DNA of 64,000 nucleotides from Agarophyton chilense (lineage: Eukaryota; Rhodophyta; Florideophyceae; Gracilariales; Gracilariaceae), in contig JARGXX010000098.1 of NCBI GenBank assembly GCA_030374765.1, positions 930,001 to 994,000 of the forward strand, given 5' to 3'. The notes beneath the pieces were generated by a model. It saw nothing but the letters and a program-made list of their open reading frames with translations, did not search any database and was not told the DNA's origin. Position numbers and translations under genes: made by a program. Position 1 is the first letter of the stretch. Each line of letters starts with the position of its first letter. Shown here piece after piece: positions 9-43,789 of this stretch.

Positions 9-1712
9 GACGCCCCGGTGCGGGGAGTCGCCGATGACCTTCGTACCCTGAGGAGGGATGTGAACTCCCTTTTGGAAAGCTTTGGTACCCCTGGGGTCTT
101 TATCCAGGAGTACCGGAGCCTCGTGGAGGAACACCGCGTGCAAGCGGAACGCTTCTGAGCTCGGCTGGACACCCTCGGGGCCATTATCCGTATGGGCGGA
201 GACGCAGAAGCCTCGAAGGATAAACCCGACGTTTCAGAAGACGAAGAACACCGCTCCGCTAAACGAGACCGCCGCAAGTCCAAGAAGAGGGTTCACCTCC
301 AAGAGGATTTATCGGATTCCGATCCCAATCGCTTGCCATCGAGTTCGTCCTCCGAATCTTTGGATAGTGAAGATGAACGCCGGTCATCCCGGGCGACTCG
401 GTCGAAGGCTACTTACACCTCTCAAGGGGCAATCCGTACCCGGAAGAAGGGTAGGAAACACCTTGGATTTAGGGAGCTGAAGCCGACGAATCCTCTCTAT
501 CGGAAGCTGCTATCGTACCGCTTTTACCGGTTGGATAACCCTTCGGGAGATCGAACATCCCGCGGAACGGGTAAGGTCAAGGACTACATCAAAAGGCTGA
601 GCATCACCCTACAGAAGGGGGAGTTCACAGGAACAGACCCAATTCTGGTGCTCGATTTCCTTGCGAGGTTCGTCCAGGAGGCTGACATCCTCGGTATGAG
701 TGAAGCGCAAGCGTATCTTGCATTACCCTATTTCTTAAAGGGAATGGCTGAAGACCAGTTCAACTCCGTCCGTGGATCATCTCGAGCCTCGGAAGGGGGA
801 GTCACGTGCTGGCCCGAAGCGGTGCAGTACCTCTTGAGGTCATACGCTACTGGAAATGCGATTCAGGAAGCAATCCTTGCATTAAGGGATACGCGGCAGA
901 AGCCGATGGAAACCGAAACGGTGTATTCAACTCGCTTGAATAAAGCGTTTCACCGATGCGGGAATGTATTCCCCGCCTACGAGAGATGCTCCATGTTTGT
1001 GGATGGTTTAGACCCCTCGATAAGGGCATTGGTTGCCCGACATCGGGAAGAGAAGCGCAAGCTGACCTACTTGGAACTGGTTCAGTACGCCCAGGCTGAG
1101 GGGGATACTCTCCGTGCCCGGCAGAACCGAAAGAGTCGGCCGACACGTGCACTCCTCGCCGATGGAGGTAACTCGTCTTTGTCACTCGCAGGAGGCCCTG
1201 CCCCTGAGCGGGTCAATGATAACATTCACTTCATGATAAGTAACCCCGAATCTATGGGTACGTCTGAGTTGCCGTCGACATCCACTCCGACTACGGATGA
1301 AGACCCTGCGCTCTATACCCACGGACGGAGGGTGCCAGCCGCATCGCTACCTTTTGCAAATACCGCCGCTCGGTTCTCTCGCCCCGGATGGAGGGATACA
1401 GTACCACGTCGCGTGGATTCACGTCCACAACCGAACCCGGCAGAGCTGATTTGCTATTTGTGTTACCTCCGTGGTCACAAAGCACCAGACTGCACATTTC
1501 CCCTGCGGGAGGGTTCACGAATTATCGCTCAGTACAAGGCTCTGACCCCTGAGGAGAAAGCTCGAGTCCCGAGTAGGTCCTATGAGGAACAAAGGATACT
1601 CCGAGCTCACCTTGCTGACAGGGATACAGAACTTGTACCCGCGAACGGGGAACAACCGGTCCCCTTCGAGGCAGCTGCACCGAATTCGGTGGGGTCCGCT
1701 TCGAAAAACTAA
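9..1712 (+). pseudogene. gag: gag of element 1 (nucleocapsid zinc knuckle)
   Basis: This is the structural polyprotein that packages element RNA. The frame has a stop at 6-8 and a TGA at 156-158, and is open from there to the TAA at 1710-1712. The visible start at ATG 192 gives 506 residues. The N-terminal stretch is acidic, serine-rich and basic by turns. The middle resembles retrotransposon gag capsid regions and aligns with the gag of element 2. A CX2CX4HX4C knuckle lies near 1450-1495 (CYLCYLRGHKAPDC). The sequence 5' of 156 reads as a heptad-like helix in the same frame and aligns loosely with the coiled-coil part of the element 2 gag. The true start is probably outside the window. Confidence 0.8.
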
Positions 1713-1736
1713 ACTTGGGAGTCTCCCCTGCGGGAG
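1703..1736 (+). promoter_or_regulatory. Candidate -1 frameshift site at the gag/pol junction of element 1
   Basis: The gag codons end TCG AAA AAC TAA. The pol frame is -1 relative to gag and is open across this point. A hairpin CTCCC-ctgc-GGGAG lies at 1723-1736, 13 nt after the AAC codon. Element 2 (GAA AAC TAA) and element 4 (GAA AAC GCC TAG) have the same arrangement with pol again in -1. The heptamer is not the canonical X XXY YYZ, so slippage is an inference. Confidence 0.5.
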
Positions 1737-4700
1737 GGGCGTCTTCTAAGCCGGAGTTGAAGACGCCCGAGGCGCTCCAGCTTCGCTCCCCAGCTGTGAC
1801 TATCCTTTCAAGGAGAACGGCTGACACCGACGTTAACTCGGGATACTTTAGTGTCCTCCGTCGCCCGTGGATACGGTCCCGTAATCTCCGTATTCCGGAT
1901 CGAGTTATGGTAATGGCCAAGCGGAATTATAAAGTATTCGCCGACTTCGGCCTGTCCAACCAGTTTATGGTTCGTCAAATATCTGTCCTGGATACAGGAG
2001 CCGCTCCTAACTTAATTCATGTTGAATTGTTACCCCCGCTGCTCCGGGTTCAAGTTCGTACCGGTCCACGTTTAGATATCGCCGATGCGAACAACAACCC
2101 GCTACGGACACTGGGTACAATTTGCCTCATGGTGAGGTTAGGCTCCTATCTCGTTCAACTAGAGTTTATTGTATGCAAGTCACTTCCAGCACCAGTCAAA
2201 CTGGGTTGTGACTTTTGCAACCGCTTCGTGGAAGCCATCCGTCCTCGGAATAGAACTGTGGAACTCGAAGACGGGTCTACGATCCCAATCGTTCGTAAAC
2301 CCTTACAGGGAGCAGCGCGAACACGCGTTCTTCTCCTTGTCGCGCAGGAATCTGTGACGAAGGACCCGGTGTCTACACGGGTAAAGGTTGCGAAGTCAGT
2401 GGCTATCCCGCCAGAAACCCAGGTTTGGGTCACAGTTGTTACCAAGCAAATTGGTGTGCATGTGGTACAACCGAACCCGTCTCTGTATACGCGGCGTCAA
2501 CTCGCCCTTGCGAATGGGGTTGTCTCCGTGGAACCGGATAAACCTTTCAAGGTTTTGGTAGCCAACTTTGGAAAGACAACGCAGCATTTGGTCAAACACC
2601 AGATCCTGGGTTCTGTTCTTCCACACCCGCATGCGGTCGTACCTACAAAGATCTCTATCGCAGAGGTCTTTGGTGTGGCGGACCCTAAGGAGGGGGAGGA
2701 CACTGCCGAAATCGCGGAAGACGGTGAGCATACGACTGCAGCTCCACACGCTGAACACTTTAAACCTCAGAAGGTTACGGCCCCTATCACTGGAGCAGAC
2801 CAGACGGATCCTGTTCAGGAATTGGAGAAATGGGATCTCAACCATGTAACCGCATCTCATCGGGAGAAGCTGAGGCACATGCTTTGTGAATTTACCCCCA
2901 TGTGGGATGGTTCCCTTGGAACTATTGGGATTACAGAACACCGCATCGACTTGTTACCGAACACTCGGCCTCTTGCCCAACACCCTTACAGGGCTGGACC
3001 GAAAGCTCGGGAAGAGGAGAAATCTCAGGTGGAGAAGATGCTTAAAGCGGGCGTAATTGAACCTGCCCAGTCCGTTTGGGCCTCACCAGTGGTGTAAGTT
3101 CCGAAACCGGATGGATCGTGGCGTTTCTGCATCGATTACAGACGCCTGAACGAGGTAACCATTAAGGATGTGTACCCGATCCCTCGGATGGACGAATACA
3201 TCGACTCCCTTGGGAGCGCTACTGTTTTCTCTACCCTCGACGCCAATTCGGGCTACTGGCAAGTCCTTATTAGAGAGGAAGATCGAGACAAAACGGATTT
3301 CGTGTGTCATCAAGGACTTTTCCGATTCCGGAGGATGCCTTTTGGGTTGACAAATGCCCCCGCAACGTTTCAACGGGCGGTAGACATTCTGTTGACTCCC
3401 TTCCAGTGGAGGACGTTTCTAGTGTATTTAGACGACATTATTGTCTTCTCCAACAACCTGGATGACCACCTCGAACACGTCAGGGACGTAATGAAGATAC
3501 TCCGCGACGCGGGAATCACCTTGAAACTCAAGAAGTGCGAGTTTTTCACCGATTCGGTTAAGTATCTGGGTCATATCATCCGTCCCGGACAGCTTTCAAT
3601 CGATGAAGTACGAGTGAAATCCTTGAAGGAAGCAAAACACCCGAAAACTCAAACGGAGTTGCGATCCTTCTTAGGTCTGTGTAACGTGTATCGCCGATTC
3701 GTCCCGAACTTTGCGGATATTGCCACCGCCCTCAACAGGCTCCTGACGAAGGGACAACCAGTTGAACTGGAACCTTTTGGCGACGCGGAAGCGTCTGCCT
3801 TCACGGCACTGGTGAATGCCGTAACATCACCGCCAATCTTGGCTCTACCCAATCCTGGGCTCCCTTACGAAGTGGACACCGATGCTAGTGCAAACCAAGT
3901 AGGGTGTGCACTGTTCCAATCCTCTGAGGATGGTGAACGTCACCCTATTGGGTACTGGTCACGTTCCCTGAATGTCCATGAAAGGAACTACTCGGTCTCC
4001 GAGAAAGAATGTTTAGCCGTTGTGTGGGCCTTAGCTACACTTCGCCCCTATCTGATGGGTACTCGTTTCAAAGTCCATACGGACCACGAATGCTTGCGTT
4101 GGCTCCTGGAGATCTCCGAACCCTCGGGCCGCCTTATGCGCTGGCGTCTCCGACTGTCGGAATTCGACTTTGAGATCCTGTACAAGAAAGGGAAGCTGAA
4201 CACTCACGCTGATGCACTATCCCGCTTGGGAACCACAGCGGAAACGGAACCCTACGAGGACGATGACATCCCATGTTTTATGGTATCGGACCTCGAGGGA
4301 GGAGCTCAACTGCTGACGGATGATGTTTGTGACGATATACTCGTCAACGAGAGTCTGGATTCGCCGACCGGCTCTTTTATACCTATCTCTCCAAAGGAGA
4401 TGATACGCGAGTAACAGCTCGACCCATTCTGTACACGGATTCGGGCTAGCCTCAACGGAAGATTTCAGTTACCTTTCGAGGACGACGATCAGGGTTACCT
4501 AATCAGGACCGTTGGACCTCGCCCGAGGATAGTGGTGCCGCACACCCTACAACAGAGGGTATTACACCTCACTCACTATGTGAAGGTTGGCGCCCACCCC
4601 GGGGGAAGAAAACTGTACCTCACGTTGAGAAGGGACTTTTACTGGCCGGCAATGGCATTCGATTGTTACGCCGTCAGACGGGCCTGCGCCAATTGCGCCA

Positions 4701-6247
4701 AGAATGACGTCAAACTTCGGAAGCACTCAAAGAAGTTGACGCTGTTCCCGGCACGGGCTCCACTCGAATTCGTGGCCATAGACATCCTAGGGGAGTTTAT
4801 CAGGACGCCCCGAGGTCATCGGTATCTGCTTGTCATTTCTGACAGATTCTCTAAGCTAACGAGAACTGTGCCGCTGAAGCGGATCACCGCCGCTACCGTC
4901 GCGCAAGCGTTCGTGACCCATTGGGTGTTCGTATATGGACCGCCGGTGCAGTTGTTATCCGACAACGGAGGGCAATTCGCATCAAAGTTCTTTCAGGATG
5001 TATGTCGAATCCTTGATGTAAGGAATTTATTTGTTACTACGTATCACCCTCAGGAGAATGGCCGTTTGGAGAGGTTCAACCGCACGATACTCAACGCTTT
5101 GAGATCGTATGTTGCGGATCACCCCAAAAATTGGGACTTGTACACAGACGCTATCACGTATGCATACAACACCCAGGTACATTGGGTTACATCGTTATCC
5201 CCATTCGAACTGGTACTGTCGAGGACACCGCCGCCGGTCGCCATCGAGGCTCAACCGACGCTGTCGACATACCCGTCACCGGGATTGTACCGAGAAGCCT
5301 GGAAGGAGTGGCTTACGAAGATGGTGCCGATAGCCCGGAAAGCAATGGACAAAGCTCAACGCGCCCACAAGAATGACTTTGACAATCGGGTTCGCAAACC
5401 TCTACCTCAAGTGGAGCCTGACGACTTCGTCTCCCTTCGAAAGGAATACTACAATCCTGAAAAGGAACGTAGGCACAAGCTTTCGCCAATTGTGGACGGA
5501 CCCTATCGGGTGGTTTCTGTAGACCCGGACACGGTGGTATTGGATATCGCTAACCGCCACGAACGGATCTCCAGGGACCGCATCACACGAGCGCCCAACC
5601 CAAATGTGGAAGTGGTATCGGCACCAACGCCCTCCACAGGGGATGATTCAACGGAAGTTAACCCGTCAGGCGGAGATTCGAACACCCGCCCCGTTATACT
5701 TCCGCACCCGGAACGTGGTTTAACAGACCTACCGGAAACTTCGGATACTCCCGAACCTGGGCCCGCTCCCTCAAGGGCCCAGTCAACGAACTCTTACAGA
5801 GTTACTCCCCCACCGGAGGTGATCAAGCCTCCTGGCTCTCCGCCTAAGGAGGGGGAGGAGGACTTAGTTCCTTCGCAGGACGATATTTCGGCGTCAGCCA
5901 GTCGCCCTAACGGGGAATCTAGTTCTCGCAGTGAGATGGCGAGCCCGACCGAGCCGGCGACAGAGAAGTCACAACCCCAGCGTATGGGTAGCGACATCAC
6001 CGCCGACCCAGCCGAGCACGACGTCAGAAAAGATGACGAAAACCCGCCTAGGGAGAGTCGTGTGGAGAACTCCGCACCCGGAACGCCTACAGAGCCGACG
6101 ATCACCCGCCGCCGCGGACGAGACACTGAGGTGTCGCACACTCAAACCCCGCTTTCTCGGGAACGAGCTGTGTCAGTGGACGCGCACGGGGAAGATCTCG
6201 ACGACGAGGTTGACCAAATTTGGCTCTCCGTTATGGAATGGGAATAG
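1713..6247 (+). pseudogene. pol: pol of element 1: protease, RT, RNase H, integrase
   Basis: One reading frame runs through 4.5 kb with only two stops, TAA 3095-3097 and TAA 4412-4414. The aspartic protease motif VLDTGAAPN lies near 1985. The RT starts around 2930. The first stop falls between WASPVV and VPKPDG in its N-terminal part, and the polymerase box YLDDI is near 3427. RNase H lies near 3870-4220 (VDTDAS, DHECLRW, THADALSRL). The second stop is in the RNase H-integrase linker. The integrase has an H2C2 finger near 4565-4700 and a DDE core (AIDILG, LSDNGG, ENGRLERFN). A GPY/F-type module (GPYRVVSV) is near 5500. A long proline- and acid-rich tail ends at 6247. The only other disruption is the frame change before the chromodomain. 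Confidence 0.9.
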
Positions 6248-6746
6248 GAACTGCTATAGAGACACTCGAACCCTCAGGAATGGGAAAGAAATGAGTGAGA
6301 CCCGTCGGTGACAGCTCAGGAGAGTGCTAGCGCGTGTCGAAAGCGCCACCTCACATCCGCTTGCGGAGTGGCAGCCGGCGCCCGCGCATTTATGTGGCAC
6401 ACGTCGAATGGCACCGAGCCAATCAAAAGGCTCTGACGACCAACCGTCGCGCAAACCGCCTCCGTCGCACGGCGCATTGCACAATAGCAACCTTCGTCCC
6501 CGTAGCTCTGGTTGACGTTGAAGTCTTACCCCCCTGAGATTGGAGACGCTACTCCGTCGCGGTTTCTCAACCGTGACAAAATCTAAGAACACCGTTGTTA
6601 TCGGAAAGATCTAAGCTTTAAGAAGAACCCAAAAGTGAGCCGTTTTGACTCCGTAGACGGAAGTTACAACGTAGCCCACAGGCCATTCGGCGCCGTTCGG
6701 ACGAAGTGCTAAGACCCAATCGCAACACGGAAAAGAACCCACCGGG
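6248..6746 (+). other. Broken linker between integrase tail and chromodomain, element 1
   Basis: No long ORF in the pol frame crosses this 0.5 kb. By position it matches the low-complexity Pro/Ser/Thr/Arg linker seen in element 3 at about 12009-12700, so it was probably coding and is now frameshifted. It holds at about 6352-6388 a stretch nearly identical to one in the antisense ORF at 7579-7618. Confidence 0.5.
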
Positions 6747-7037
6747 GTGTGTCTAGACCCTACGTTGACACCCTCAAGGGAACTAGAGCGTTCCAAGATG
6801 GAACAGAAGCCCGAAAAGGGAAAAGTGTACCCGCAGGAATTCGTTATCGATCGCATCGTGCGTCACATCTACACCCCCGAAGGAGAAGTCCGCTACCAAG
6901 TCCGATGGTACGGATTCTCGCCTGATGAGGATACAGTGGAACCCATTGAGCACCTTTCGAGGTCTAAGGTTTTATCCTATCACCGACGCGCTCGGGTAAC
7001 CTTGCCTCCAAATCTGGATCGTGCCCAAGTCGGGTAA
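6747..7037 (+). pseudogene. Chromodomain end of element 1 pol
   Basis: The peptide FVIDRIVRHIYTPEGEVRYQ followed by VRWYGFSPDEDTVEPIEHL has the chromodomain pattern of three strands (R-Y-x-V-R-W-x-G), W/V-E-P and a C-terminal helix. Chromodomains at the integrase C-terminus define chromoviruses and are thought to guide integration into modified chromatin. The frame differs from the main pol frame, so it is a displaced pol end rather than a separate gene. It ends DRAQVG-stop, like the element 3 copy. Confidence 0.8.
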
Positions 7038-7395
7038 GCCACCACGGGAACTGGTGTGGATGCGACCTCGAAGTGAGGAAGATGTTAGACCTCTGAAGAG
7101 GAATTGAGGAGAGTATCCCGAAGAACACGTATTGAGAGGGAATGTCTACTGGCCCTCGGCCTAGGGCCGTTAACCGGGGAACACAGCACCGGTTATCGGG
7201 ACAGTTTATGATGAAAAAAAAGAAAAAAAGAAGACCCACGAAGTGGAGAAGAAGATTAAGAAGAAGATTGGACCCTAGGAAGGGAAGAAGATGAAGACGA
7301 AAATGAAGAAGATGCTAAGAAGGAAGAAGCAAAGAAGTAGAAGTTAAGATCCTAGGAAGGAAGAAGAAAAAAGTTATGCAAATATCAGAAGTTTA
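7038..7395 (+). other. Purine-rich (GA) tract between pol and the convergent antisense ORF
   Basis: The + strand is strikingly rich in AAGAAG-like triplets from about 7205 to 7370, with almost no pyrimidine runs. It lies exactly where the sense pol transcript and the antisense ORF meet tail to tail. Elements 3 (about 12990-13100 +) and 2 (about 43795-43900, pyrimidine-rich on + because the element is on -) have the same feature. No convincing ORF is present. Confidence 0.6.
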
Positions 7396-7440
7396 CTATT
7401 GTCGCCAAGCTATGGACTCCACAATTGCCCGAAGGCGGAA

Positions 7441-9297
7441 CTACGGGAAGCCCGAGGAGGGACCCGCCCCACCGTTGGGATTCTGACCCTGATGGTACGC
7501 CGAGGCGAAAGCCAACATCTGGCTCACATCCGTCATACCCTGGGGAATCGGAATGCCCGCGTTCACGAGGCCTTGTCGCACACTATCCGCTTGCGGAGTG
7601 GCAACCGGCGCCTGCGCAAGGGTGTTCACACCCCACCCGGGGGGAGCAGATGGACCGCCACTGGATGCATTCGCCGCCGCAGTTGAGGTCGTTCCCACTG
7701 GTTGGAAGGGTGCAGATGGCTCCACAGGGAGTACTCCACTAGGAGCTGGCATGTCGTTATCCAACGCTGGATCGTCCAGGTCTACTGGAGGCTCGTACTC
7801 GTAATCGTCGGTATAAATGAACCCCGTCGGGTGTCCCACCGGCATCGGTCGAGGCGAGTCAATCAGCGCCCGTGCTTGCGCCGCGCTGATGCGAACCCCT
7901 TCGAAGGGATTGTAATAGACCCAGTTACCGGAGCCCGGATCGTACCGGCCAGGAGACTTGTCTCGCGCGGATCCTTCCCCTGCGGGCTGATTCGCCACTG
8001 GAACTCGATCCCACTGGGTGTTGTCGATCACGTCTAAGATTGGATACAGGTCCTGCACGTTGCTGGCCGAACCCAACGCTGGGACAAGGTCGATCTGACG
8101 CATGATGGTCCGTAGCATCGGAGGAATATACCAGATACGGAAATGGTCATGAGCATCCCAGAGGAGGTGCGCCGCTACGCGGGCTGCCCACTCGGCTGCA
8201 ACGAGGGCCCAGTATCCCGAGTTCGGGTCGTGCATCAAACGAGACCCGATATAGTAGATACATGGGGGCAGTTCAGCAAAGCACCCTCGGGGGACCTCGA
8301 CCTTACTCTACCAAGCTGGAAGGGGCACGAATCGCCCAACCTTCGCCTTGTTACGGATACGCTTCAGTTCCACGTGAGGATACGGGACAAGGAACCCGAA
8401 ACGGGAGCGCGAGCGGCGCTCGAATCGCACGCGTCGATCGAACCCATACTGGGTAAACTGCCGTTGAAGGTACCTGAATTCAGCCCGAAGGATGGGACGA
8501 CTCCATTGGAGCATATCTTCTCGGAGAGGAAAACCCGGTCCGCAGAACTCGGCTTCGGGAAAGGCTGCCAGGTTATCCCCGTAGGAGACCTCACCGTACG
8601 TGCGGTAATAGGCGACATCGAACCCGTACTCCGGGGGAACCAGATGGTCAAAGCGTGACCTCTCCAATCGCTGGTAGGACAGAGCCGCCATCGCTGCGCG
8701 CGCCTTGTCCAGGGACTCCCCGCGACTGCGGTATAGATACTGAGGCTCTATGGCTACCCGTGCCCTCCAATCGGGAGAACGTACAACCTCAACAGGTAGG
8801 ACACCCGGCAATAGGCCGTCCTCCACGTAGGAGTTGATGAGCTCATCGTCGCGAACCGCTGTCGGATGGAACCACGGAGCGCGGGAATATATCACCGGAT
8901 CGGTAAGGGGACTCCACCTTCGAAAGGATTCGTTTGAGATCCAACCTCTGGAGTTTGCTACCAAGGGCATCGCATGAGCGGAGTTCCACGCCACCGCGGT
9001 GATGGCCAAATCCTCCTGAGGATGTCGGTTGCCCGCCGAGGCGGAAGGTTCGGTACCTGACGGAGCCGCATCCAAACCGGAGAAATATCCACCCTGCTGG
9101 GGAGCTTCGTTGTCCGCCGTCGCGGAGGCCGATGGCCCCGAGAGTGGGTTGAGGACGTATGGGTTCATTCCCTTGAGAGGGTTGGTTGAGACTTCTGTTG
9201 CAAGAAGTTGCTTATCGCCGGAAGTCGGAGGAGTAGGAGAAAGTTGTACCGATGTGCCGGTTTTGTGGCGATCCCCAGAAGTGGTGAAGGACCCCAT
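7441..9297 (-). pseudogene. Antisense accessory ORF of element 1 (aORF)
   Basis: This is a long ORF opposite to gag-pol, of unknown function. From ATG 9297 it reads about 618 codons with one stop, TAG 8308-8310. Its start lies about 80 bp inside the 3' LTR, with TATATATA at 9309-9316 on the correct strand just upstream. The N-terminal third is Ser/Pro/Ala-rich. The conserved core has APWFHPTAVRDDEL, YQRLERSRF, a basic RRSRSRFGFLVPY block, then a second block around DPNSGYW and LWDAHDHFRIWYIPP. An acidic Pro-rich tail and a short terminal helix follow. The same protein is found at 13183-15051 (-) and 41905-43731 (+), always convergent with pol. I recognise no known family. A capsid, envelope or silencing-suppressor role would be a guess. 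Confidence 0.75.
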
Positions 9298-9365
9298 TGG
9301 GAGAGCAGTATATATAGGGACCGGAACGCGAGACACCCGCGGCTTGGAATGTTCTTCCTCGTCTT

Positions 9366-9378
9366 AAGGAGGGGGAGA
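9366..9378 (+). promoter_or_regulatory. Polypurine tract of element 1
   Basis: AAGGAGGGGGAGA immediately precedes the TG of the 3' LTR, the expected primer site for plus-strand synthesis. The element 3 LTR at 15087 is preceded by AAGGAGGGGGATA, which supports both LTR starts. Confidence 0.75.
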
Positions 9379-10292
9379 TGTAGAGCAACGCCCAGTTAGG
9401 GGATACTTGAAGATGCAACTCATAGAATGAGGATTGAACCCTCCGAGGGTTATGATTATGATCCCCTCTAAGGTGTGCTGAGGTGGCACTGTTTTCTGGT
9501 TAGAATTCGTCTATAAGGGAAAATTCGGATGGCCCATGGTTGGATTGGCCCCGTGATACACGTGGCTTAATTTTGGCACCGAATTTCGGATATTTGTAGA
9601 ACGTTGGACTTTTGGGCCCTGACAGTTGGATCTTCACGTGTATGGCCCTGAGCAGGTGTGCACTACTGTAGAGTTTAGTTAGTGGGCCCTACTTAGGGAG
9701 ATGAGATCTGACAGTCCGAAGCTCAAAGTAAATGGGAACCAAGGTTGGTCTTCGATACCTTTATAGGTTCTTCGTCGCCATCGCTTCGGCCTTACAACCC
9801 GGAACGGGCTCTGGTTAGCAACGCCTGCGTAGGGACACGACTCCACTTGGAGAGTGCCCACGTTTGGGTTCCGTGCAACCACCCCCTTGGGACCGCTCAG
9901 ACGACCTGCGTGCACGATACCCCGTGGGGGTTCTGCTTACTTGTTGCGTGCTTTTTGTGTTTCCTTTCGAGGACAGGTTTTCGCCCCTGTATTGGGTTTC
10001 TTTTGTTGTTTCGCCCCTTTTCTGGTTCTCGGGTCCGGTGCCTGTTAGTGCCCGACCCTCGCCTCGTTTTTCCTCTTCGCCGGATTTTCCCCCATCCTTT
10101 GGGATACCCATACCCATTCCCGATCCAACGGTTTCTACCCCTCACCTCCGTCGGTACTGCCGGAATCCCCCGTGGGAGTTACACCCCACACTACGGGTGG
10201 AACGGAGGGCTCTGTCTCTGAGTCCGCCTCCCCCAGGGAGCAAGGCTTCGAACACCTTGAGAGCACTTCCCGTCGCCGGGTTTTGCTCCACA
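9379..10292 (+). repeat. 3' LTR of element 1 (914 bp)
   Basis: It starts TGTAGAGC and ends GCTCCACA, an 8-bp terminal inverted repeat with one mismatch. It follows a polypurine tract and is related along its length to the LTR at 15087-15974; both contain a T-rich block with GTTTCGCCCCTGT-like sequence. Integrase homology of element 3 begins directly after 10292. The ORFs inside it are not shared with other proteins and look fortuitous. Confidence 0.72.
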
Positions 10293-12507
10293 AATGGAGG
10301 AAGTACTCTCCCCTTTCAGGTGAATGACGCCGGATACCTTGTACGGACCTTCGGATCGCACCCAATAATCGTGGTACCACATAACCTCCAGTCGAGAGTA
10401 TTGCGGATGTCATACTACTCCAAACTGAGTGGCCACGTCGGGGGACGGAAACTTTACCTCACCCTACGCCGTAACTTCTACTGGCCAACCATAGCAGTGG
10501 ACTGCTACGCAACGGTGCGGTTTTGTACCGATTTCGCTCGGAACCGTGTCAAACTCCGCCGTCATGCGACGAAGTTGAAGCTGTTCCCAGCTCGCGCTCT
10601 ATTGGAGTTTGTGGCCATCGATATACTCGGTCCCTTCCTTACCACTAAGCGGAATTACAAGTTCTTACTCGTAATTACGGATCGCTTCTCCAAGCTGGTC
10701 CGGACCGTACTGTTATGGAAGATCTTCGCTATGAGTGTAGTATCCGCTCTAACGGAGATAGCAGTTACCTGCGACAGCGTTCGGACTGCCGATGGGTCGC
10801 TTGCGGCGAAGTAAAAGGGGTGGTAGAGCTACAACACCAGCGAGCTGGAAGTGGGGTGTAAGGCCACTACTCGCCAGCGAGGGTGAAAAGTGCAACTGTA
10901 AAACGTTGATGGAACGTAGGTACGAGACGGCTCCTGAAGTGGTTGGGGGCTGACTATCTATTACAGCTCGTCGGAATCTCCGGTTAAGGAATCCTAAGCG
11001 AGGAACAGAATAGTCATGATGCCAATGTTGTCTCCATTACTTGGAGTCGGCGCTCACCTCTGGTAGACTATATACTGTGTGCCAGGGTGAGTGCCCAAAT
11101 AAATATATAAATAATACCCAGTGGTCAGCCACTTAGCCAAACCACTGTATGGGTATGGTCCCTAATGGACGTCTAGCTACAAAAAGGTAGTAAAACCAGC
11201 CACGTGGATCGCCACTACATGAGCCGTTGCAAGCCACTCCACTCGTGATGCCACGTGTTCGAACAATGTACCCTGCCTCCTGGCATCCTACGCGGTGTGC
11301 CGTTTCATATCACAATGCTGATGATATCACTCACTTATGAGTTCCAACCGCGACTTCGCGAAAAATCATCCTATCGGATTCCCTGACATAGTCGAATACT
11401 ACAATGAGCGTGGCTCAAGCCTTCGTCGTACACTGGGTCTTCGTCTACGTCCCACCGGTCAACCTCCTCTCCGATAACGGGAGACAGTTCCCCTCTCGTT
11501 TCTTCGAGGATGTGTGTCGCATCTTGGACATTAAGATCCTGTTCACGGCCACTTACCACCCCCAAACTAATGGGCAGGCCGAACGGTTCAACCGGACATT
11601 ACTTGCGACACTCCGTTCATACGTTGCAGACCACCCCAAAGATTGGGACTTGTTCACTGATGTGCTCACCTTTGCATACAATACGCAGGTGCACAGAACC
11701 ACTGGATTAACGCCCTTCGAGCTGGTACTGACCCGTACCCCACTGCTCGTGGCGCTGGAATCACAGCCCACGCTGGATACCTTTCCGTCACCGACTGCTT
11801 ACAGCGAAGCGTGGAAAACTTGGCTCCGCGATCGCGTGGTATCGGCTCCTCCGCCGTTAACCTCTCAACCTAATGGTGGTACTGCTCCCGTTGAAACGGA
11901 TTCCTCAACCCCCTTACCCCAGGTCCACCCGCGTCCCTACGCGTTACCACACCCATCTCGGGGTTTGTCTGACCTTCGCTACCCGCGGCGCCCAACCCAC
12001 AAGGAATCGTGTCGCGCATTCGTCGCTCTTCCCCAGTCCACCCGACGGACACAAACTCCGGTGCATCGTCTAAGAAGAGGGAGACGCCCGACAGCCGTAG
12101 TAATCCAGTCGATACCGTCGCTAGAACCGCCGCACCGTCGCGTGTCATTCTTCGCCCATCAGGGGTGCCTGATACCGACGTCCTCCACGACTCGACGCAG
12201 CCGCTATCCAAGCCTCAGAACGCAGCTGCGGATAACGCCACCAACACTCGCCGAGGTGTCACCACACGTGCAACACGGAATACAAATGCGCTCGACGCAC
12301 TGCAGCCTGATACAGTACGAGTGGACGACGCACCGCGAAGTACCCCGCACGGGGAGGCGGATACATCCACGGCGCCGACGCCGGACAGCCAGCCATTGGA
12401 ACCCTCACGTGACTACACGAAACCTCGCCGTGGGACAGAGAGGTGTGACAATGCGCCACCGCCCCAGCGAATCTCACCGCCGAAGCGAGCTTCACCACGC
12501 CGATTAG
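10293..12507 (+). pseudogene. pol: Integrase region of element 3 pol, split by a solo LTR
   Basis: The left part (10293-10735) carries the RNase H-integrase linker and the H2C2-like finger. One finger cysteine appears changed, since FCTDFARN replaces the usual CxxC spacing. It also holds the first catalytic Asp (AIDILG). The right part (11404-12507) has the second Asp (LLSDNGRQF) and Glu (NGQAERFN). Removing 10736-11403 and one ATGAG copy rejoins the frame exactly. About 75 codons equivalent to the GPY/F module of element 1 are missing after EAWKTWL near 11825. A frameshift follows near 12000. Confidence 0.8.
10736..11403 (-). repeat. Solo LTR of the element 2 family (668 bp)
   Basis: It is bounded by a perfect 8-bp inverted repeat, TGTAGTAT and ATACTACA, and flanked by ATGAG at 10731-10735 and 11404-11408. 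It closely matches the LTRs of element 2 at 41214 and 51207 in the same written orientation. Since element 2 lies on the - strand, the parent element was on the - strand here too. An AT-rich TATA-like block AAATAAATATATAAATAA lies near 11097-11114. A solo LTR arises by recombination between the two LTRs of a full element. Confidence 0.93.
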
Positions 12508-12971
12508 CGGAATAACCACCCGGTTTACCCGCTGGTGTGGGCCCTCCAACCGGAGTGGGAAGCGCCGAAACAAGCCCGGCACTTGGGGACAATGAACCGC
12601 CGAAGTCGGGTCGACATTCTACTCAGCCGAGGACTGCCTTGCGTGCTACACGGTCCGACCGGAGCGAAGCCGCCCAACGCGTGATCACTTCAGTACCCCC
12701 TGGCTCAGGATGGGTACCACCCGGAAATAGTGACACCGTCATACGGGATGGCCGGGAAGTGTACCGACAAGAGTTCGTGGTCGGACGCATTTTGGAGCAC
12801 TCCTACCACCCAAAAGGGTATATCCAATACTTGGTCCGTTGGTACGCGTACGGCCCCGAATGGGATTCAGACGAACCGATAGAGCACATAACTCGGTCCA
12901 GGGTGGTACAGTATCATCGTCGTACTGTAACGGCTTTGCCGGCTACCATAGACCGAGCCCAAGTTGGATAA
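12009..12971 (+). pseudogene. Linker and chromodomain end of element 3 pol
   Basis: One frame is interrupted by a single stop at 12513-12515. The first 230 codons are low complexity, rich in Pro, Ser, Thr and Arg. The end holds a chromodomain: EFVVGRILEHSYHPKG, then YLVRWYAYGPEWDSDEPIEHI, ending DRAQVG-stop as in element 1. It is out of frame with the upstream integrase because of the frameshift near 12000. Confidence 0.78.
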
Positions 12972-13130
12972 GAAGACACCCGATGGGGATAAAGGAACAG
13001 AAGATCTGGATAAGGACCCTTGGAAGAAGGAGAAGATGCACAGAAGACCTGGAGAAGGACACTCAGGAGAAGTGGAAGAGAAGAAAAAAACAAATACGTC
13101 ATAGACCGAAGCAGTTTACTATTTTCGAAG
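12972..13130 (+). other. Purine-rich tract, element 3
   Basis: This is a GA-rich sense strand between the chromodomain stop and the 3' end of the antisense ORF, the same position as in element 1. On the antisense strand an AATAGTAAAC motif (13111-13120) follows the ORF stop. The same motif is found after the element 1 antisense ORF and may serve 3'-end formation. Confidence 0.5.
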
Positions 13131-13182: not shown

Positions 13183-15051
13183 TCAGTTGGAAGAACCCGG
13201 ATTACCGTGCGCGCCAGCCGAATCGCTAGCGGAGTTACTCCCGCCGGCCAGGCGTGCCACGAGGGCGTCTCTCATTGTACCGATGTCACCGCTCGCCGCT
13301 TGTGCGTTCAGTCCGACACCCCGAAGGAACTGGGAGATCACGGCCGCCTCTGGGTGTATGGGAACCTCGATAACTTCCTGTTCGTCCGGCAAAGCCGCCG
13401 CCACTGGATCGACCACTGCACCTGCGTGAGTCGCTCCCTGCGCCGGCTGCGCTGTTGAATCGGCACCATCGGGGTCGCCCACGTCTTCCATGACCTCTTC
13501 GCCACGGTATTCGCCCTCCTCCTCCGGGAGATCATCACCGCCATAGGCGTAGTAGAAGTCATCCGAGTTGACAAACCCCAGGGGGTGCCCGTATGGTATG
13601 CCTCGTGGAGCCATCCGGAGTGCCGATGTCTCCGCCTCGGAGGTCTCTTGCTGCTCCCATGGGTTAAAGAAGATGAAATCTCCCGCCAATGGCATGCGAC
13701 GCCCCGGAGACCGATCAGCCCCACCGGCTTCTTGACCACGGCCGCTCTGCCGGACAGGCACGACAGCCCAGTCGACACGCCCAATGATGTCGATGAGCTC
13801 CTGAGCTTCATCAGCGTTATTGACACCTCCAAGAGGGAGTTGAAGGTCCAGCTGCCGGATGTAACCACGCAAACGCGGAGGAAGATACCACAGTCGATAC
13901 TGGTCGTAGGCTTCCCACAAGATGTACGCCGCGGCGCGTACTGCCCATTCGGTTAGGACCACGGACCATAAGACGGAGTGCGGATCCTCGATGAGGTACG
14001 AGCCCGGATAGGAGACGACGGGAGGAAACTCCACGTAACATCCCCGGCACACTTCGACGGAGGACCACCACCCAGGCAGGGGAACGTATCGCCCGAACTG
14101 ATAGAAGGGACTAATCCGGTTTATCTCCGTGTTCTGATAAGGGACAAAGAACCCAAAGCGGGATCTGCCCCGACGCTCCTCGCGGATGAAGTTCTGTAAC
14201 CACCGATATCGGGACTCACGACGAAGGTGACGGAACTAGGCACGACTGATCGGACGGACCCAGCAGATCGCTTCTTGATGCGCTCGCGGTTTACCGCGCC
14301 ATGCGTAAGTTTCCAACGCCGCAAGGCGGTCACAATAGCCGATCTCACCATGAGTCCAGTACATCCGTAGGTCGAAGCCGAATTCGTCGGGGATGGGGTA
14401 TTGAAAGTTCGCCCGGTTGATCCGTGAATAGCCGATGCGGACATATATGCAGTGCGCCTCCTCCGCCGACTCGCGCCTTTGCCGCAGGATCGCGTGAACG
14501 GGAACCGCCACACGACGTCGCGAATCCCACGAGGTGGTGATCAAAGCCGGCAGCTAGCCCGGGAGACGCGCATTGCCATCAGCATACGACGCCACGAGTT
14601 CTTCGTCGAAGACCGCTGTCGGATGGAACCACGGAGCTCTCCGGAGAATCACCGCCTGTTGACGCGGGTTTAACCTGACGAGTTCGTCGTAACTGGGCCA
14701 GGTGTTCTCCGCAGGAGTGATGTGGCTTGAAGCTTCAACGGGACCCCGGGATCAGCTCGGCGCGGTTGACGAGGCACTCCCCCGCAGAAGGGGAGCCGAA
14801 TGGAAACCGGAGAAGTAACCCCAGCGGGGATTGTAACCACCGTTCATCGGAAATACTGGTCGCCGAGGTATCGGGATGTGTTCGCTGGAAGTTGGCGTAC
14901 GATGCGGAAGAACGCTCGAAGTTCGAGGAGTGGTTATCGCGTTGGTGCGTTTGTCGTTCGGTTGTGCAGCTCTGCCTTCGACAGTGGAGTGGTCGCTGGA
15001 CGCGTTACGCGGCTCGCTCTTATGCCGGTTGGACCGTTGCCTCCCCGCCAT
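13183..15051 (-). pseudogene. Antisense accessory ORF of element 3 (aORF)
   Basis: It is the same protein family as 7441-9297 (-). The frame from ATG 15051 carries three stops, at 14752-14754, 14554-14556 and 14236-14238, but no evident frameshift over 1.87 kb. The diagnostic blocks are WGYFSGFHSAP, APWFHPTAVFDEEL, RRGRSRFGFFVPYQ, VEVCRGCYVEFPPVVSY, LWEAYDQYRLWYLPPRLR and a terminal ISQFLRGVGL helix. It converges on the chromodomain ORF of element 3. The function is unknown. Confidence 0.75.
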
Positions 15052-15073
15052 GTCGACGGCGTGTTCGTCACCT

Positions 15074-15086
15074 AAGGAGGGGGATA
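15074..15086 (+). promoter_or_regulatory. Polypurine tract of element 3
   Basis: AAGGAGGGGGATA lies directly before the LTR start TGAAGGAC, matching the tract before the element 1 LTR. Confidence 0.7.
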
Positions 15087-19450: not shown

Positions 19451-20677
19451 TCAGTCCTGCTTGACAACGCTCTCAATGGCGTCCTTCATCGCATCAGCGA
19501 CGTAATCAACAGTACTTTCTGTCAGACCGGCCATGGACATTCGCCCATTAGTGGTCATGTAGATATGGTACCTGTCTCGCATGAACGCAACTTGCTGACT
19601 CGTCAATCCTGTAAAACTGAACATGCCAATCTGGTTCACAATGTGATCCCAGTTTCCAGGTGCGCCATTCCTGTTCAAGGCGTCTCTCAGCCGACATCTC
19701 ATGGCATGGATGCGAGCTGACATCTTTTCCAGTTCCAGTTCCCACTTCCGGAAAGCATCTTCATCCGACAAGATTGCAGCCGCGATGCGAGCTCCATGTA
19801 AAGGAGGACTACTATACATGGCTCGTATCAACTGTTTTAACTGACTCCTAACTGCAGCAACTGACTTTGGGGACGACGATACCACGTTGAGTGCCCCAAC
19901 CCGTTCTCCGTACATTCCCATATTTTTTGCATATGATTGAGCGACTAACACATCGATTCCAGAGTTTACAAACAGCCTAGTGGACCATGCATCTGTGTTC
20001 AAGTCCCCAGATGCAAAGCCCTGGTACGCGTTATCAAAGAATGGAACAAGTTTCCTTGATTTTACAACTGCAAGAATGCGTTGCCATTCAGCTCTTGAAG
20101 GATCAGCGCCAGTAGGGTTGTGAGCGCATCCATGAAACACGACGATAGATCCTTCAACAGCAGAGCTCAAGTCCACCAGCAGTCCTTCGATGTCGACGCC
20201 TCGCGTGTTGGGGTCAAAGTAACGATAGTTTTCGGTTGGGGGTAATCCAGCTTGTGGAACAACGTTTCGATGATTTGACCAGGTAGGGTTTGGGATGTAC
20301 ACAAGACGCTGTCCAATAAAATTAGCGATGAATGCAAATCCAATGCGCAGGGCACCAGTTCCTGAAAGAGCCTGCACGGTGACGACGCGATTCTGTTTGA
20401 GGGCCGCACTATCAGGGCCGAGTATGAGACGAGCGGAAAGATTGTTAAACTCTGTCAACCCATCTTGTGGTAAATATTCATGGGTGATACTAGGATCATT
20501 GGCGAATTGTCTTTCAAACTCCTTCACAATCGGTAGCACATAAGGTGCGCCATCATCCGTGCGATATGCTCCAACTCCGAGATTGATTTTCTTTGGGGAC
20601 GGATCTGCTCGATAAGCGGCGGACACGGCGAGAATGGGATCAGGTGGGGCCTGTGGCACTTGGTCGAAGATGGACAT
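19451..20677 (-). CDS. Aspartate aminotransferase (class I, PLP-dependent)
   Basis: It interconverts aspartate plus 2-oxoglutarate and oxaloacetate plus glutamate. From ATG 20677 it has 408 residues, the full length of the eukaryotic type. PLP and substrate motifs are HNPTG (186-190), DNAYQG (215-220) and SYAKNMGMYGERVG with the Schiff-base Lys251. The frame stays open upstream to 20944 with an Arg/Ser-rich, transit-peptide-like sequence but no ATG. A mitochondrial or plastid isoform would therefore need an upstream exon; from 20677 the product would be cytosolic. It converges with the sulfotransferase gene, with 202 bp between stops. Confidence 0.93.
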   Translation of the reverse strand: MSIFDQVPQAPPDPILAVSAAYRADPSPKKINLGVGAYRTDDGAPYVLPIVKEFERQFANDPSITHEYLPQDGLTEFNNLSARLILGPDSAALKQNRVVTVQALSGTGALRIGFAFIANFIGQRLVYIPNPTWSNHRNVVPQAGLPPTENYRYFDPNTRGVDIEGLLVDLSSAVEGSIVVFHGCAHNPTGADPSRAEWQRILAVVKSRKLVPFFDNAYQGFASGDLNTDAWSTRLFVNSGIDVLVAQSYAKNMGMYGERVGALNVVSSSPKSVAAVRSQLKQLIRAMYSSPPLHGARIAAAILSDEDAFRKWELELEKMSARIHAMRCRLRDALNRNGAPGNWDHIVNQIGMFSFTGLTSQQVAFMRDRYHIYMTTNGRMSMAGLTESTVDYVADAMKDAIESVVKQD

Positions 20678-21305
20678 TTTGCTCACTGTGGTGAAGCCCG
20701 GAAGTGCGCTGGGGTTGACGGCTATATGCGAAAAGCTTCGTGTTCGACCGTTCTCAGAGTGCGATCGTCGTTGAAAAGATCTACGGGATAGCGACGATGA
20801 GAGATTGTTGGTTCGTGCCGGAGCGACCGTCACAGCAGTGCTGCTGTTCAAAAAAAGCGTTGACTCGCATATGTACAGTACGAAGGGAATGTGAATCAAA
20901 GTTCCCTCGCCCGCGATTGTTGTTTTTTGGGAAAATGCTTCCACAAAACTTATAGGCCTACTACTCTAGCTAGTAGAGAGGCTTGCTGACAGCCGGTACA
21001 TCTCTTGAGATACGGTGCTCCTCAACTGCGCTATGATACATATGCCTGACGATTCAGACTACAACGACATTCTGCATATCGCTGAAAAGTCAAGAGGGTG
21101 AGGGTTAACCCAAAGTCTCGTCGCTCTTCCTCCCTGAGGATGTCGATCAAGCCAAAAGGCAGCGAATCGGGCAATAGGTAGAGATTCTGAAGAGGGGTGT
21201 GAGAGAAACCGCACTCTTTGCAGACAGCATCGAAACGCCATCAATGTGAAGAAAACATATTTACAACAGTTCTCCAGACACAACCCTCCCCCCATTGACA
21301 TCACC

Positions 21306-23381
21306 CTATGAGTTCCCAGTCGATCGCACCTTCACTCCAGTATTCCCATCGGCATTCTTAATTCTCATCTTCTCAACCAAAACCTTTAGCACCGCAATAT
21401 CAGCAGGATTGACCCCTCCGATGCGAGCTGCCTGTCCAATTGTCTCTGGACGAATCTTCGCCAGCTTTTCCCTCGCCTCAAGTCTCAATCCGTTTACACG
21501 CGAATAATCAAGATCAGGCAATCGTTTAGAAAACGCCTTCTTTGTCTTTTCAATTTCATCAAACTGCCGTTTTATATATCCTTCATACTTGACTTCGGTC
21601 TCCACACGCTCTCTTTCGTACGCATTTTGAAGGTGCCCACCAAGCCCGGCTTGCCTCAAACAGCTGTAGTGGAGCGCGGGTTGTTTCAGCACGTCTGCCA
21701 AAGTTGAGCTCTGTTTAATCGTCGCTCCTTTCCTACGAAGTTGTTCGGCATCTTCACTGCTCCCACTCACACGCGTTTGATACAATCTCTTCATCTCGCT
21801 CTCAACTCGTTTCGATTTCTCTTCAAATATCTTCCACCTATAATCATCAATCATTCCGATTGACCTGCCCAACGGCGTCATGCGACTATCGGAATTATCC
21901 GCTCTCAAAATCAGGCGATATTCTGACCGCGACGTGAGCACACGATATGGCTCTCTCAATGGCTTTGTACAAAGGTCATCAATCATAGTACCAATAAAAG
22001 AGCTTTCTCTCGACAAGGAAATCATGTCCATACCAAGCGCACTTCTCGAGGCGTTTATACCCGCAATGAGCCCCTGTGACGCAGCTTCTTCGTAGCCAGT
22101 GGTACCACAAACTTGCCCAGCAAAGAACAATCCGTCCACATTTTTGCTCATCAAGGTAGTATGCAGCTGCGTAGCAGGAATGTAATCATAGTCAACACTG
22201 TACGCAGGGCGCACCATGGTAGCATTTTCCAAGCCCGGAATGGTACGAAGAACTTCAAGTTGAATATCTTCCGGAAGACCCGTACTGAACCCTTGTATGT
22301 AAAGCTCCGGTATGGTTCGACCCTCAGGTTCGATAAAGATTTGATGTGAAAGCTTATCGGTGAATCTAACGATCTTATCTTCGATACTAGGACAGTAACG
22401 GGGTCCAGTAGAATCCATAAAACCACCGTACTTGGGTGTGAGATGTATGTTTTCTTTTATCATTTTATGAGTGCTCGACGACGTTCGCGTGAGATAACAG
22501 GGCATGGTTTGGCGTGGTTTCCATTCAGACGGATCAAAGCTAAACCAATGATCCTGTTGATCGGATGGCTGTGGCTGCATTACGGAATAGTTAACAGAGC
22601 GAGAATCGACTCGAGGCGGGGTTCCTGTTTTCAATCTGCCAGTTTCAAAGCCCAAATCATTGAGGGTTTGTGTGATTCCAAGCGCAGGAAGTTCACCCGC
22701 GCGCCCTGCAGGCATGCTCCGCGCGCCAACCCATATAGTGCCCTGTAGAAACGTGCCAGTGGTAATGACGACGCATTTGGTTCGAAAGGCAGCTCCGAAG
22801 AAGGTTGTGACACCCACCACATCGTCATTATCGCCTATGATTAAATCGTGTACCATGCCTTCCCTGATATCAAGAAACGGGGTAAGGGAACGCTGATGCA
22901 ACACACTGGTCATCATCTGTGAATACTCTCTCTTGTCGGTTTGAGCTCGCAACGCCCAGACGGCTGGCCCCTTTGAGCGGTTAAGTATGCGGCGTTGCAA
23001 ATAAGTCCTATCTGCAATGCGGGCAATCCAGCCGCCCAAGGCGTCTGTCTCGTGCACCAGGGTGGACTTGGCGGGGCCGCCGACGGCCGGGTTACACGGC
23101 TGCCAGGCGATTTTGTCGAGATTCATGGTAAGCAAAAGGGTTTTCGCTGAGAGGTTTGAGGCGGCTAAAGCGGCTTCGCAGCCGGAATGGCCAGCGCCTA
23201 TGACGATTACATCGTAGGTTGTCGGGTGCCAGTTTATCGCGTGGCGCGACGAGCGAAGAAGCGCTGTGGTGGGCGGCTTTCGCTTGCGCGGGGAGTGTGA
23301 GAAGGGGCGAAACTTGACGGTGAGGATATTCCGGGGAGGGGCGCGGCTGCTAAGAGGGAGCGGGGAGATGAAAGAGATCAT
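21306..23381 (-). CDS. MTO1: Mitochondrial tRNA uridine-5 carboxymethylaminomethyl-type modification enzyme (MnmG/GidA/MTO1)
   Basis: This FAD protein acts with MnmE/GTPBP3 to modify the wobble uridine of certain tRNAs. From ATG 23381 it has 691 residues. A basic, Ser/Arg-rich leader of about 45 residues looks like a mitochondrial transit peptide. The FAD motif [17 protein letters not shown] follows, then [37 protein letters not shown], and the C-terminal MnmG helical domain ([20 protein letters not shown]). An in-frame ATG at 23525 is an alternative but would place extra sequence before the leader. It is divergent from the glycosyltransferase gene with about 715 bp between starts. Confidence 0.94.
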
Positions 23382-24095
23382 TTGCAGGCGACCGAGATGG
23401 GCGGCGCAGTGTCGGTGAGCTGCCGGGTGCGCGCTGAAAGTACGAAGGTAGGTGAGCAGGTTGATCTGGAAGATCAATTGACGATTACAAAATGTATTCG
23501 TAACACAATTACAGCACGTGGCCATGCATGGCGAAGCGGCACGGCTGTGTTGCTCACTGCGCACACATATCTACGTCACGTGTAATGCATCTGCGAGATA
23601 TTTGATAAGTCGCCGGTAGACCTTTCCAAAGCAACTTATCGTGAACCAAAGGCTAAGTGCTTCCTCCGCGCAGTAAACGTTGAATTCAACACCGTTCGTA
23701 ACTTATCGACAGGAGATAAACATAAACTTAGATATATCCAGCTGTCCCATGGCACCTGGCTGTCTTCTCTGTTCAGGACCTGAACTTCAGGCCCAACGCG
23801 GACTGGCGCGCAGTGCGCTGTCGCCAACGGCGGCGAAACACAGCGTGCAGATTCACTGCGTCTTTGCAGCAAAGCGTCCACATGCTCCGCCTCGCGCTCA
23901 TTGGACATTGCCCACAACTGCCAAAATAAAGCTTCCCCCGCTGTCGAACCAAACACAATCGGCACACTTGCGCCTCATGCCGCCGCTTCTTATCGCCGCC
24001 GTCACCCTCCCCACTTCCTTTCTACAGCCCACGCCTAGCTAGCTAGCTAGCGGCCTGTTGAGCCCGAGCGCCCTTCACCGTCCGTCTCGCTCACC
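23382..24095. other. Divergent intergenic region between MTO1 and the glycosyltransferase gene
   Basis: It probably holds both promoters. No convincing ORF is present. A short (CTAG)n run lies at about 24036-24050, 45 bp before the glycosyltransferase ATG. Confidence 0.5.
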
Positions 24096-27476: not shown

Positions 27477-28194
27477 GTTTAGTACATGGAGAGCTCTGGA
27501 CGAAGCCGAAGTGTACATAAAGCAAGAATCGGTTCAGGAAGAGCGATGAGGCTCAGCCACCCATTTCGTTTCTAGCTAGCAGTGAGCGAGGAGCTACGCT
27601 TTTTGATGTTACAGCGCAGTGCTTTATAATACCAGCGTTCAGCGTCTCCCACTTTACTCACGCTTGACCGACATGAAAGTCTTCCGGAAGCGGCGCTTGC
27701 TCTACGAGGTCGGCGTCACTTATTCAGGACAAAATCGTACGGCGTCAAGCGTGAGCAGTAGCAAGTCACGAAGATTTGACATTTGTGGACATTGGTAGTC
27801 TTCGGTCGTTGCAACGGAAGCACTCTCGAAATCCTTTGTACTGCCTGCATGCCCGTATCTACGGTCGTGTCTTGCACATGAAGAACGGTGTTGTCAACAG
27901 CATTTGGATTTTCGAAGCAGGAGTCGTTGGGCGAATCAAACGCAGCGCGCGTAGGTGACATGTTGTCGTGCATAGCAGGTAGTGCTTCCATCGTGCGTAA
28001 ATTGACTTGGCCTCCGTGTGCGAAAACGAGGTTACGGAAGGTACGAAGGTACAGTCCTTCTTTTCGCTCCCAAACTTTCTCTTCATTTCACATCACCCAA
28101 CGAATGTGGCTTTCCAGGCTCCATCGTGCTTTTCGTTTGGGAAGCATTCTGCCTCTACCCACCAAACAACGCAAAATCTAGCCTCCCCCACCGA
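27477..28194. other. Intergenic region before the NB-ARC gene
   Basis: I see no supported gene. The NB-ARC frame is open back to 28018 without an ATG, so its 5' leader or an upstream exon may lie here. Confidence 0.4.
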
Positions 28195-38349: not shown

Positions 38350-38798
38350 TGTTACGCAATGACTGGTTAAATTAGCGCACGGGTCTCGACCGGTGGTAGC
38401 GTGGTAGAGCGAGTCCTAAGGTTCGAATCCTTGAATGCGGCACTCCCAGAGTACTTCATGCAATGGGCTGGCGTTTACTGCGTAGTCCTACAGGTTGGAG
38501 CTACGGAAACGATGGCTTGAAGACCAAAGGGTGGAACTAAAATACCAAAGGGGGTTATTTAGTATCCTAACGGTGCCTACCGTACTGTAAGGGAGAGGCG
38601 TCACTCGTGCCAAGTAAATAGTACTGGCGAGGTGATGAGACGTCCCTGGAACTGTAGTGTTAATCTATTACACTAATTAAATTAAACTAATAATCTACCT
38701 GAGTCCACCTGAGGTCGACCCGTACACGTGTCATATGCAAGATCCTTCAGGGCCCGCCGGCTTACAGGGCTCAACCGCTATCACCGCTGCTTCGCACA
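38350..38798 (-). repeat. LTR A of the element 4 family (449 bp)
   Basis: It starts TGTTACGC on the + strand and ends TTCGCACA by alignment with the LTRs at 39008 and 59447. It is the 5' LTR of the truncated gag copy to its left. At 38397-38432 it holds tRNA-like D-arm and T-arm sequences (TAGCGTGGTAGAGC and AAGGTTCGAATCCTT) on the + strand. Confidence 0.75.
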
Positions 38799-41880: not shown

Positions 41881-41904
41881 TACACCCCTCGTTAAGCGCG
41901 AACC

Positions 41905-43731: not shown

Positions 43732-43783
43732 TAATCCTATAAAAGACTCCTAGTCAACACCCTTGCGGTGATATCTTGATACC

Positions 43784-43789
43784 AATAAA
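43784..43789 (+). terminator. Polyadenylation signal after the element 2 antisense ORF
   Basis: AATAAA lies 53 bp after the stop at 43731, on the antisense-ORF strand, just before the pyrimidine-rich tract. Confidence 0.45.

Follow-up and report, generated by a model that had tools for sequence, protein, structure and literature searches.

A 64,000-nucleotide stretch of the red alga Agarophyton chilense (GenBank assembly GCA_030374765.1, contig JARGXX010000098.1, positions 930,001 to 994,000; hereafter the window) contains four retrotransposons, elements 1 to 4, each representing one family (families 1 to 4). On the strand opposite their gag-pol genes lies a long open reading frame (ORF), and we conclude that this antisense ORF is a real, selected, and old accessory gene of the elements. 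As the best overall explanation we propose that a group of chromodomain-bearing Ty3/Gypsy elements from red algae would have a third gene, antisense to gag-pol and flanked by chromodomain and polypurine tract, which would be expressed from its own mRNA and encode a nuclear regulator acting in trans; taken as a whole, we consider this account somewhat better than an even bet. Copies outside the window were sought in a genome of 79.8 Mb in 135 contigs.

Coding and selection of the antisense gene

A first-pass annotation, made from the sequence of the window, had described frames of 600-620 codons in elements 1, 2 and 3, and we found them where it had placed them: at 7441-9297 on the minus strand (element 1), 41905-43731 on the plus strand (element 2), and 13183-15051 on the minus strand (element 3). 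The motif blocks that it listed, APWFxPxAxxDxxL, RSRxGxxVPY, SxIGSxLxxDPxSxxW, and LWxAYDxxRxWYxPP, are common to the copies and occur in the same order. The description of these window copies as open frames had to be corrected. Element 1 has one in-frame internal stop (codon 330), element 2 has two (codons 381 and 492), and element 3 has three (codons 100, 166, and 272). These stops fall at differing positions, and each family has other copies in the genome that are stop-free. The protein has a conserved core flanked by two poorly conserved tails. Translation of the family-1 ORF could start at 9297 (ATG) or at 9168 (the ATG of MNPY), and the start residue of a homologue, P0004, matches the later MNP start.

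We compared one copy each from families 1 to 3 (L002, L011, and the open 543-codon part of L043) in a protein-guided alignment of 408-410 codons. The antisense proteins were 36-39% identical in amino acids between the families. Identity by codon position was 0.51-0.53 at first positions, 0.55-0.63 at second positions, and 0.27-0.35 at third positions, for which chance is 0.27, and four-fold sites agreed at 0.21-0.36. Over the aligned stretch the antisense frame had no stops and each of the other five frames had 4-24. This codon pattern marks a protein that selection has maintained beyond the point at which silent sites were saturated. We conclude, with near certainty, that the antisense ORF is protein-coding and selected, as shown between families. 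Two other readings of the stretch were rejected: a chance ORF is ruled out by the between-family codon pattern and the stop-free frame, and sense-strand coding across the same stretch is ruled out by the stops in every other frame.

Several results weigh against selection or leave it unsupported. One frame on the opposite strand was also 30-35% identical in amino acids, though it contained 18-24 stops; identity of this order is to be expected of a frame that shares the conserved positions. Within families, the signal resembling dN/dS (the ratio of nonsynonymous to synonymous substitution rates) was weak, being near 1 in family 2 and not clear in family 1. Measured against a mutation-matched null, the omega-like value was 0.54-1.05 in family 1 (3 pairs), 0.64-0.69 in family 3 (3 pairs), and 0.49-0.78 in family 4 (6 pairs); the family-2 value of 0.97-1.25 (3 pairs) alone gives no support. 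A naive pairwise ratio of nonsynonymous to synonymous differences (pN/pS) in family 2 did not single out the antisense frame among the frames. When shared changes were compared with singleton changes in six frames, the antisense frame stood out in family 3 only (odds ratio 0.41, p = 0.012). Another family-3 frame deviated in the opposite direction (odds ratio 2.92, p = 0.023), the comparison comprised 18 tests with uncorrected p-values, and family 1 provided only 6 shared changes. The within-family signal is mixed, as would be expected if many of the differences postdate insertion; many copies decay once inserted, and this dilutes the signal. The first-pass annotation had proposed an element-encoded factor under selection and had named a dN/dS near 1 as the observation to look for against it. 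Between families the gene survives this test by its codon pattern; within families the outcome is mixed, with family 2 at about 1. The gene has a fixed place in several families and extends beyond the three elements of that annotation, to a likely relative in family 4.

Internal stops were also scored in copies elsewhere in the genome. Among the loci that were cut out, with the window copy included, 3 of 8 in family 1 and 7 of 30 in family 2 had no internal stop. The family-2 count becomes 4 of 27 when four near-identical loci are collapsed to one, because these loci agree at 99.98-100% over 4827 bases including flanks. The four loci (L011, L012, L013, and L014) represent one family-2 copy with its flanks four times, and two of them lie near contig starts, indicating a segmental or assembly duplication. 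In family 3 none of the 7 loci of the first sample was stop-free, and two open copies were then chosen from the search table. Protein searches of the genome gave stop-free matches in 40 of 71 scored matches for family 1, 13 of 80 for family 3 (543-residue query), and 19 of 115 for family 4 (352-residue query, often over about 300 residues); these hand counts favor intact copies, because they cover the best-scoring copies and include the query's own locus. Open frames of families 3 and 4 were 633-698 residues long, some of them running to the edge of the fetched stretch. A first look yielded 416-493 candidate places with DNA of families 1 to 3 and 1163 with the family-4 protein, which are candidates rather than confirmed copies. 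Full-length matches were many in each family; the searches began from the ORF, so that copies lacking it are uncounted. One family-4 copy (L047) has lost most of the antisense gene by deletion, so some copies persist without it.

Carrier elements, the fourth family, and age of the gene

Element 1 extends from before the window start to about 10297. Its gag, protease, reverse transcriptase (RT)/RNase H, and integrase frames occupy 192-6247 on the plus strand, in the orientation opposite to the antisense ORF and with a broken pol frame. This order, from gag through protease, RT, and RNase H to integrase, is that of a Ty3/Gypsy chromovirus. Pfam matches were RVT_1, RT_RNaseH, rve, and Retrotrans_gag, the last at 22.3 bits against a cut-off of 24.1; the protease frame had no Pfam match and was placed by order alone. 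At the end of pol, Pfam Chromo was found above its cut-off in an open stretch of element 1 (6675-7037, plus strand, E = 9.1e-9) and in an ORF of element 2 (44003-44677, minus strand, E = 3.9e-7), and a family-4 copy (L048) gave a chromodomain-like match of 21.2 bits, below the cut-off of 25.1. The 3' long terminal repeat (LTR) of element 1 (9379-10297, plus strand) is 98.3% identical to the 5' LTR immediately before the window, with a target duplication AATGG and edges set by eye. Between the antisense ORF and this LTR lies a purine-rich tract (9366-9378, sense strand, plus), putatively the polypurine tract, and a similar one is present in element 3 at about 15071-15086. Element 2 lies on the minus strand and is enclosed by LTRs at 51207-51926 and 41214-41880; the latter is its 3' LTR (minus strand), and the two are 85% identical.

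The ORF is antisense to gag-pol and sits between pol and the 3' LTR, a layout termed aORF-3R. The first-pass placement between the chromodomain and the 3' LTR holds for elements 1 and 2, where Pfam Chromo lies on one side and the polypurine-like tract or 3' LTR on the other; in element 3 the LTR edge is suggested by the similar tract. Element 3 is a partial copy, with an integrase interrupted by a family-2 solo LTR (10736-11404, target duplication ATGAG). Elements 1 and 2 have diverged considerably, with amino-acid identities of 41% in gag, 48% in the protease frame, 55% in RT/RNase H, 53% in integrase, and 46% in the chromodomain. Two further features were noted. A 34-nucleotide direct repeat, 94% identical, links the gap between integrase and chromodomain of element 1 (6355-6388) to the 3' part of its antisense ORF (7585-7618), and in families 1 to 3 the interval from the chromodomain side to the antisense stop contains stretches that, judged by eye, are purine-rich on the sense strand (at about 7210-7370, 43815-43905, and 12930-13095, respectively).

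Element 4, also on the minus strand, contains element 2 and shares 46-48% identity in integrase with elements 1 and 2. Its antisense gene lies on the plus strand in two parts. The first, at 40145-41213, covers profile positions 1-358 in two matches that are in different frames and meet at 40503-40510, and the second, at 51926-52684, covers profile positions 357-609. The two parts abut the two ends of element 2 (about 41209-51931), which was inserted within the gene. The presumed 5' LTR is at 59447-59892 (minus strand), with related stretches at 39008-39456 (80.5%) and 38350-38782 (79.2%). Outside the window, integrase and 3' LTR of a family-4 copy (L046) are about 3.4 kb apart. In L046 and L048 the intervening region contains a long antisense frame interrupted by stops, and in L049 and L050 the antisense frame is open for 687 and 698 codons, respectively. 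We had considered element 4 as a family without the gene, since its chromodomain seemed to be joined to the LTR around 59.9 kb, and we rejected this reading because other copies have the long antisense region, which element 2 splits in the window.

A hidden Markov model built from families 1 to 3 did not reach family 4 (E = 0.36). A profile-profile comparison between families 1 to 3 and family 4 scored 47.2 over 200 columns (E = 4.5e-5), and the control maxima were 26.4 for 200 column shuffles, 26.7 for 200 block shuffles, and 17.2 and 18.1 for reversed profiles. From these profiles the family-4 antisense protein is likely homologous to that of families 1 to 3. Integrase and antisense protein agree that families 1 and 3 are nearest to each other and that family 4 stands farthest from the rest. 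Weighing on the other side, the program assigned the profile match a probability of 53-69%, its global mode gave E = 0.22, and the order of pairs 1-2 and 2-3 differs between integrase and antisense protein, by small margins. Taken together, we conclude that the antisense gene is old and was inherited with the element lineage, a conclusion that is well supported and that we hold with high confidence.

Candidate transcription signals

The first ATG of the antisense ORF is 82 nucleotides from the 3' LTR in family 1, 25 in family 2, and about 36 in family 3, where the LTR edge is approximate. A possible core promoter, TATATATA (9309-9316, minus strand), lies shortly before the first ATG in the family-1 ORF; the window copy has the exact sequence, as do 5 of the 7 further copies displayed. 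Past the antisense stop, one copy of each of the four families has a hexamer resembling a poly(A) signal within 43-79 nucleotides: AGTAAA in family 1 (7392-7397, minus strand, 43 nucleotides past the stop) and family 3 (13115-13120, minus strand, 62 nucleotides), and AATAAA in family 2 (43784-43789, plus strand, 52 nucleotides) and family 4. Among the copies shown, tested copies included, the hexamer is exact in 6 of 7 in family 1, 15 of 15 in family 2, 4 of 4 in family 3, and 4 of 5 in family 4. In shuffled sequence the probability of such a hexamer in the first 110 nucleotides was 0.019-0.080 per family, and none occurs on either strand within the four ORFs tested, one copy per family.

These hexamers may be poly(A) signals. 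The presence of a hexamer past the stop, with none inside the ORF, suggests a separate antisense mRNA. Such an mRNA would have its start on the antisense side of the 3' LTR or slightly interior to it, and a poly(A) signal of its own, shortly after the stop codon, would terminate it; this signal cannot shorten the genomic RNA, because it is on the opposite strand. Several points count against the proposal. The TATA-like site was examined in family 1 only, one copy each in families 1 (L008) and 4 (L046) lacks an exact hexamer, and the chance of a match rises to 0.040-0.123 per family if ATTAAA is allowed. In addition, the hexamers were noticed after the fact, and those of families 1 and 3 may not be independent, since both families have AATAGTAAA in common. 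Judging by these signals, we think that the gene probably has an antisense mRNA of its own.

Possible functions and related systems

Database scans brought few relatives. Five proteins of families 1 to 4 matched no Pfam family up to E = 5; one family-3 fragment gave only DUF6127, at chance level (E = 0.19). The scans of family 1-4 proteins also gave no match to Transposase_28 (PF04195), the TRP28 domain of Retand, and none to a bZIP domain, which is present in HBZ of human T-cell leukemia virus type 1 (HTLV-1). Nothing was found in PHROGs for the family-1 and family-2 proteins or in scans of viral contigs and GTDB contigs, and the PDB gave one chance-level match (E = 2.5). In a collection of 5.8 billion proteins, with the best 8000 candidates scored per search, families 1 to 3 had one relative, and the family-4 protein had four, annotated as Agarophyton chilense (order Gracilariales). 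One homologue, on a 21,947-base ENA contig, is 48% identical over 91% of the query. The first-pass annotation had called the elements red-algal, which agrees with the annotation of the family-4 matches and with the phycobilisome linker genes in the window (13 domain matches above cut-off, several within one gene). Unnamed red-algal proteins of this kind, including the four under Agarophyton chilense, are more plausibly interpreted as belonging to elements than to the host.

In four copies, the family-4 protein carries near its end a conserved PKKR with further basic residues behind it, and we take this basic stretch to resemble a nuclear import signal. The protein would most likely act in trans on the element's own nuclear cycle, by regulating transcription, the handling of RNA, or integration. 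Weighing against this, PKKR was seen in family 4 only, and families 1 to 3 have basic runs in the core with no equally clear signal. By analogy with known antisense genes and from the PKKR stretch, we propose a nuclear regulatory action only tentatively. We are similarly guarded about a broader proposal, that the gene predates the split of at least four red-algal chromodomain families and encodes an undescribed nuclear protein family, with its own mRNA, that the elements need or use to control their spread.

We considered four further explanations. The first concerns origin and is compatible with the third-gene explanation: a host gene or a smaller nested element may have arrived in antisense orientation and been kept. 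The antisense orientation is what one might expect of a transcription unit captured along with its poly(A) signal, and the same place in four families means that any capture is old. Beyond the relatives described above, the 5.8 billion proteins yielded none at this sensitivity, and we regard capture as possible but unlikely. In the second, the antisense product would be made as copies accumulate and would restrain the element, a form of copy-number control. Some yeast elements make restriction factors. The many unconfirmed candidate places and the many stop-free matches are consistent with self-limitation, and an antisense orientation would ease dose-dependent feedback; the protein, however, bears no sequence sign of a capsid or integrase fragment and belongs to no Pfam family. 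We consider self-limitation rather improbable.

The third explanation is a structural or envelope-like protein that would aid particle formation or exit. The maximum 19-residue Kyte-Doolittle mean was 0.93-1.33 in eight proteins of families 1 to 3, which thus have no strong membrane segment, and 1.36-1.82 in four family-4 proteins, of which three (1.68-1.82) could form a membrane helix. Moreover, the env-like additional ORFs (aORFs) described in a passage of PMC7264820 are in sense orientation, whereas the gene in question is antisense. From orientation and hydropathy we judged an Env-like protein to be less likely, and we give this explanation a low probability. Finally, the antisense RNA itself could be the useful product, through pairing or small RNAs, with the open frame incidental; antisense non-coding transcripts of retroelements are described in part of PMC7264820, but third positions near chance and 4-24 stops in the other frames largely refute this, the profile similarity to family 4 also speaks against it, and we consider it very improbable.

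The third-gene explanation has parallels among antisense accessory genes of retroelements, which are reported in scattered families, their origin and function unknown. Zhao et al. in 2011 reportedly found an additional antisense gene, brtn, in Boty-like elements. What appears new is the protein family of the seaweed and its occurrence in red-algal chromodomain elements; genes of this kind are already known. The antisense layout is described, in the sections consulted of PMC11963269 and PMC7264820, for the plant non-chromovirus Retand, for Grande and RIRE2 of grasses, and for the fungal element Boty, and a nuclear or regulatory role is proposed there for plant antisense aORFs. For Retand, a passage of PMC11963269 describes an antisense ORF with a TRP28 domain, of unknown function and with a proposed regulatory role; unlike the carriers studied here, Retand is a non-chromovirus of flowering plants, and the seaweed proteins have no Pfam match. 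The grass elements Grande (gene23) and RIRE2 have an antisense gene between pol and the 3' LTR, as the seaweed elements do, and gene23 is transcribed from its own promoter and yields a nuclear protein, according to a portion of PMC7264820. These differ in host lineage and were compared with the seaweed protein through Pfam only. Excerpts of PMC8365987 and PMC7264820 place brtn of Boty-like elements of Botrytis as an additional antisense gene in a Gypsy element; the likeness is one of description, and the host is a fungus. HBZ of HTLV-1, a nuclear protein from an antisense gene with an antisense promoter in the 3' LTR (parts of PMC7264820 and PMC11963269), belongs to a retrovirus and serves as an analogy only. 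In red algae, chromoviruses are mentioned in a passage of PMC3605345, and a 2012 survey reports, in the part consulted, no retrotransposon chromodomains in three red algae (PMC3350952). We found no description of this gene in red algae in the open-licence PMC literature, which leaves room for one elsewhere. If the broader proposal above is true, these elements would have arrived at the same strategy as those of distant plants and fungi and as retroviruses: placing a regulatory gene on the opposite strand and giving it a terminator of its own. In this one genome a single protein family can be traced through three diverged element families, and probably a fourth, and many of the copies are open, so that its selection, expression, and function can be tested.

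The window also holds genes unrelated to the elements. Host genes at 19451-20944 and 21306-23564, both on the minus strand, encode a class I/II aminotransferase and a GidA/MnmG-like protein, respectively. A large ORF at 28018-31245 (plus strand) combines an NB-ARC domain with WD40 repeats, an immune-receptor-like layout in a red alga, and its end carries repeats about 80% alike at 30666-31018.
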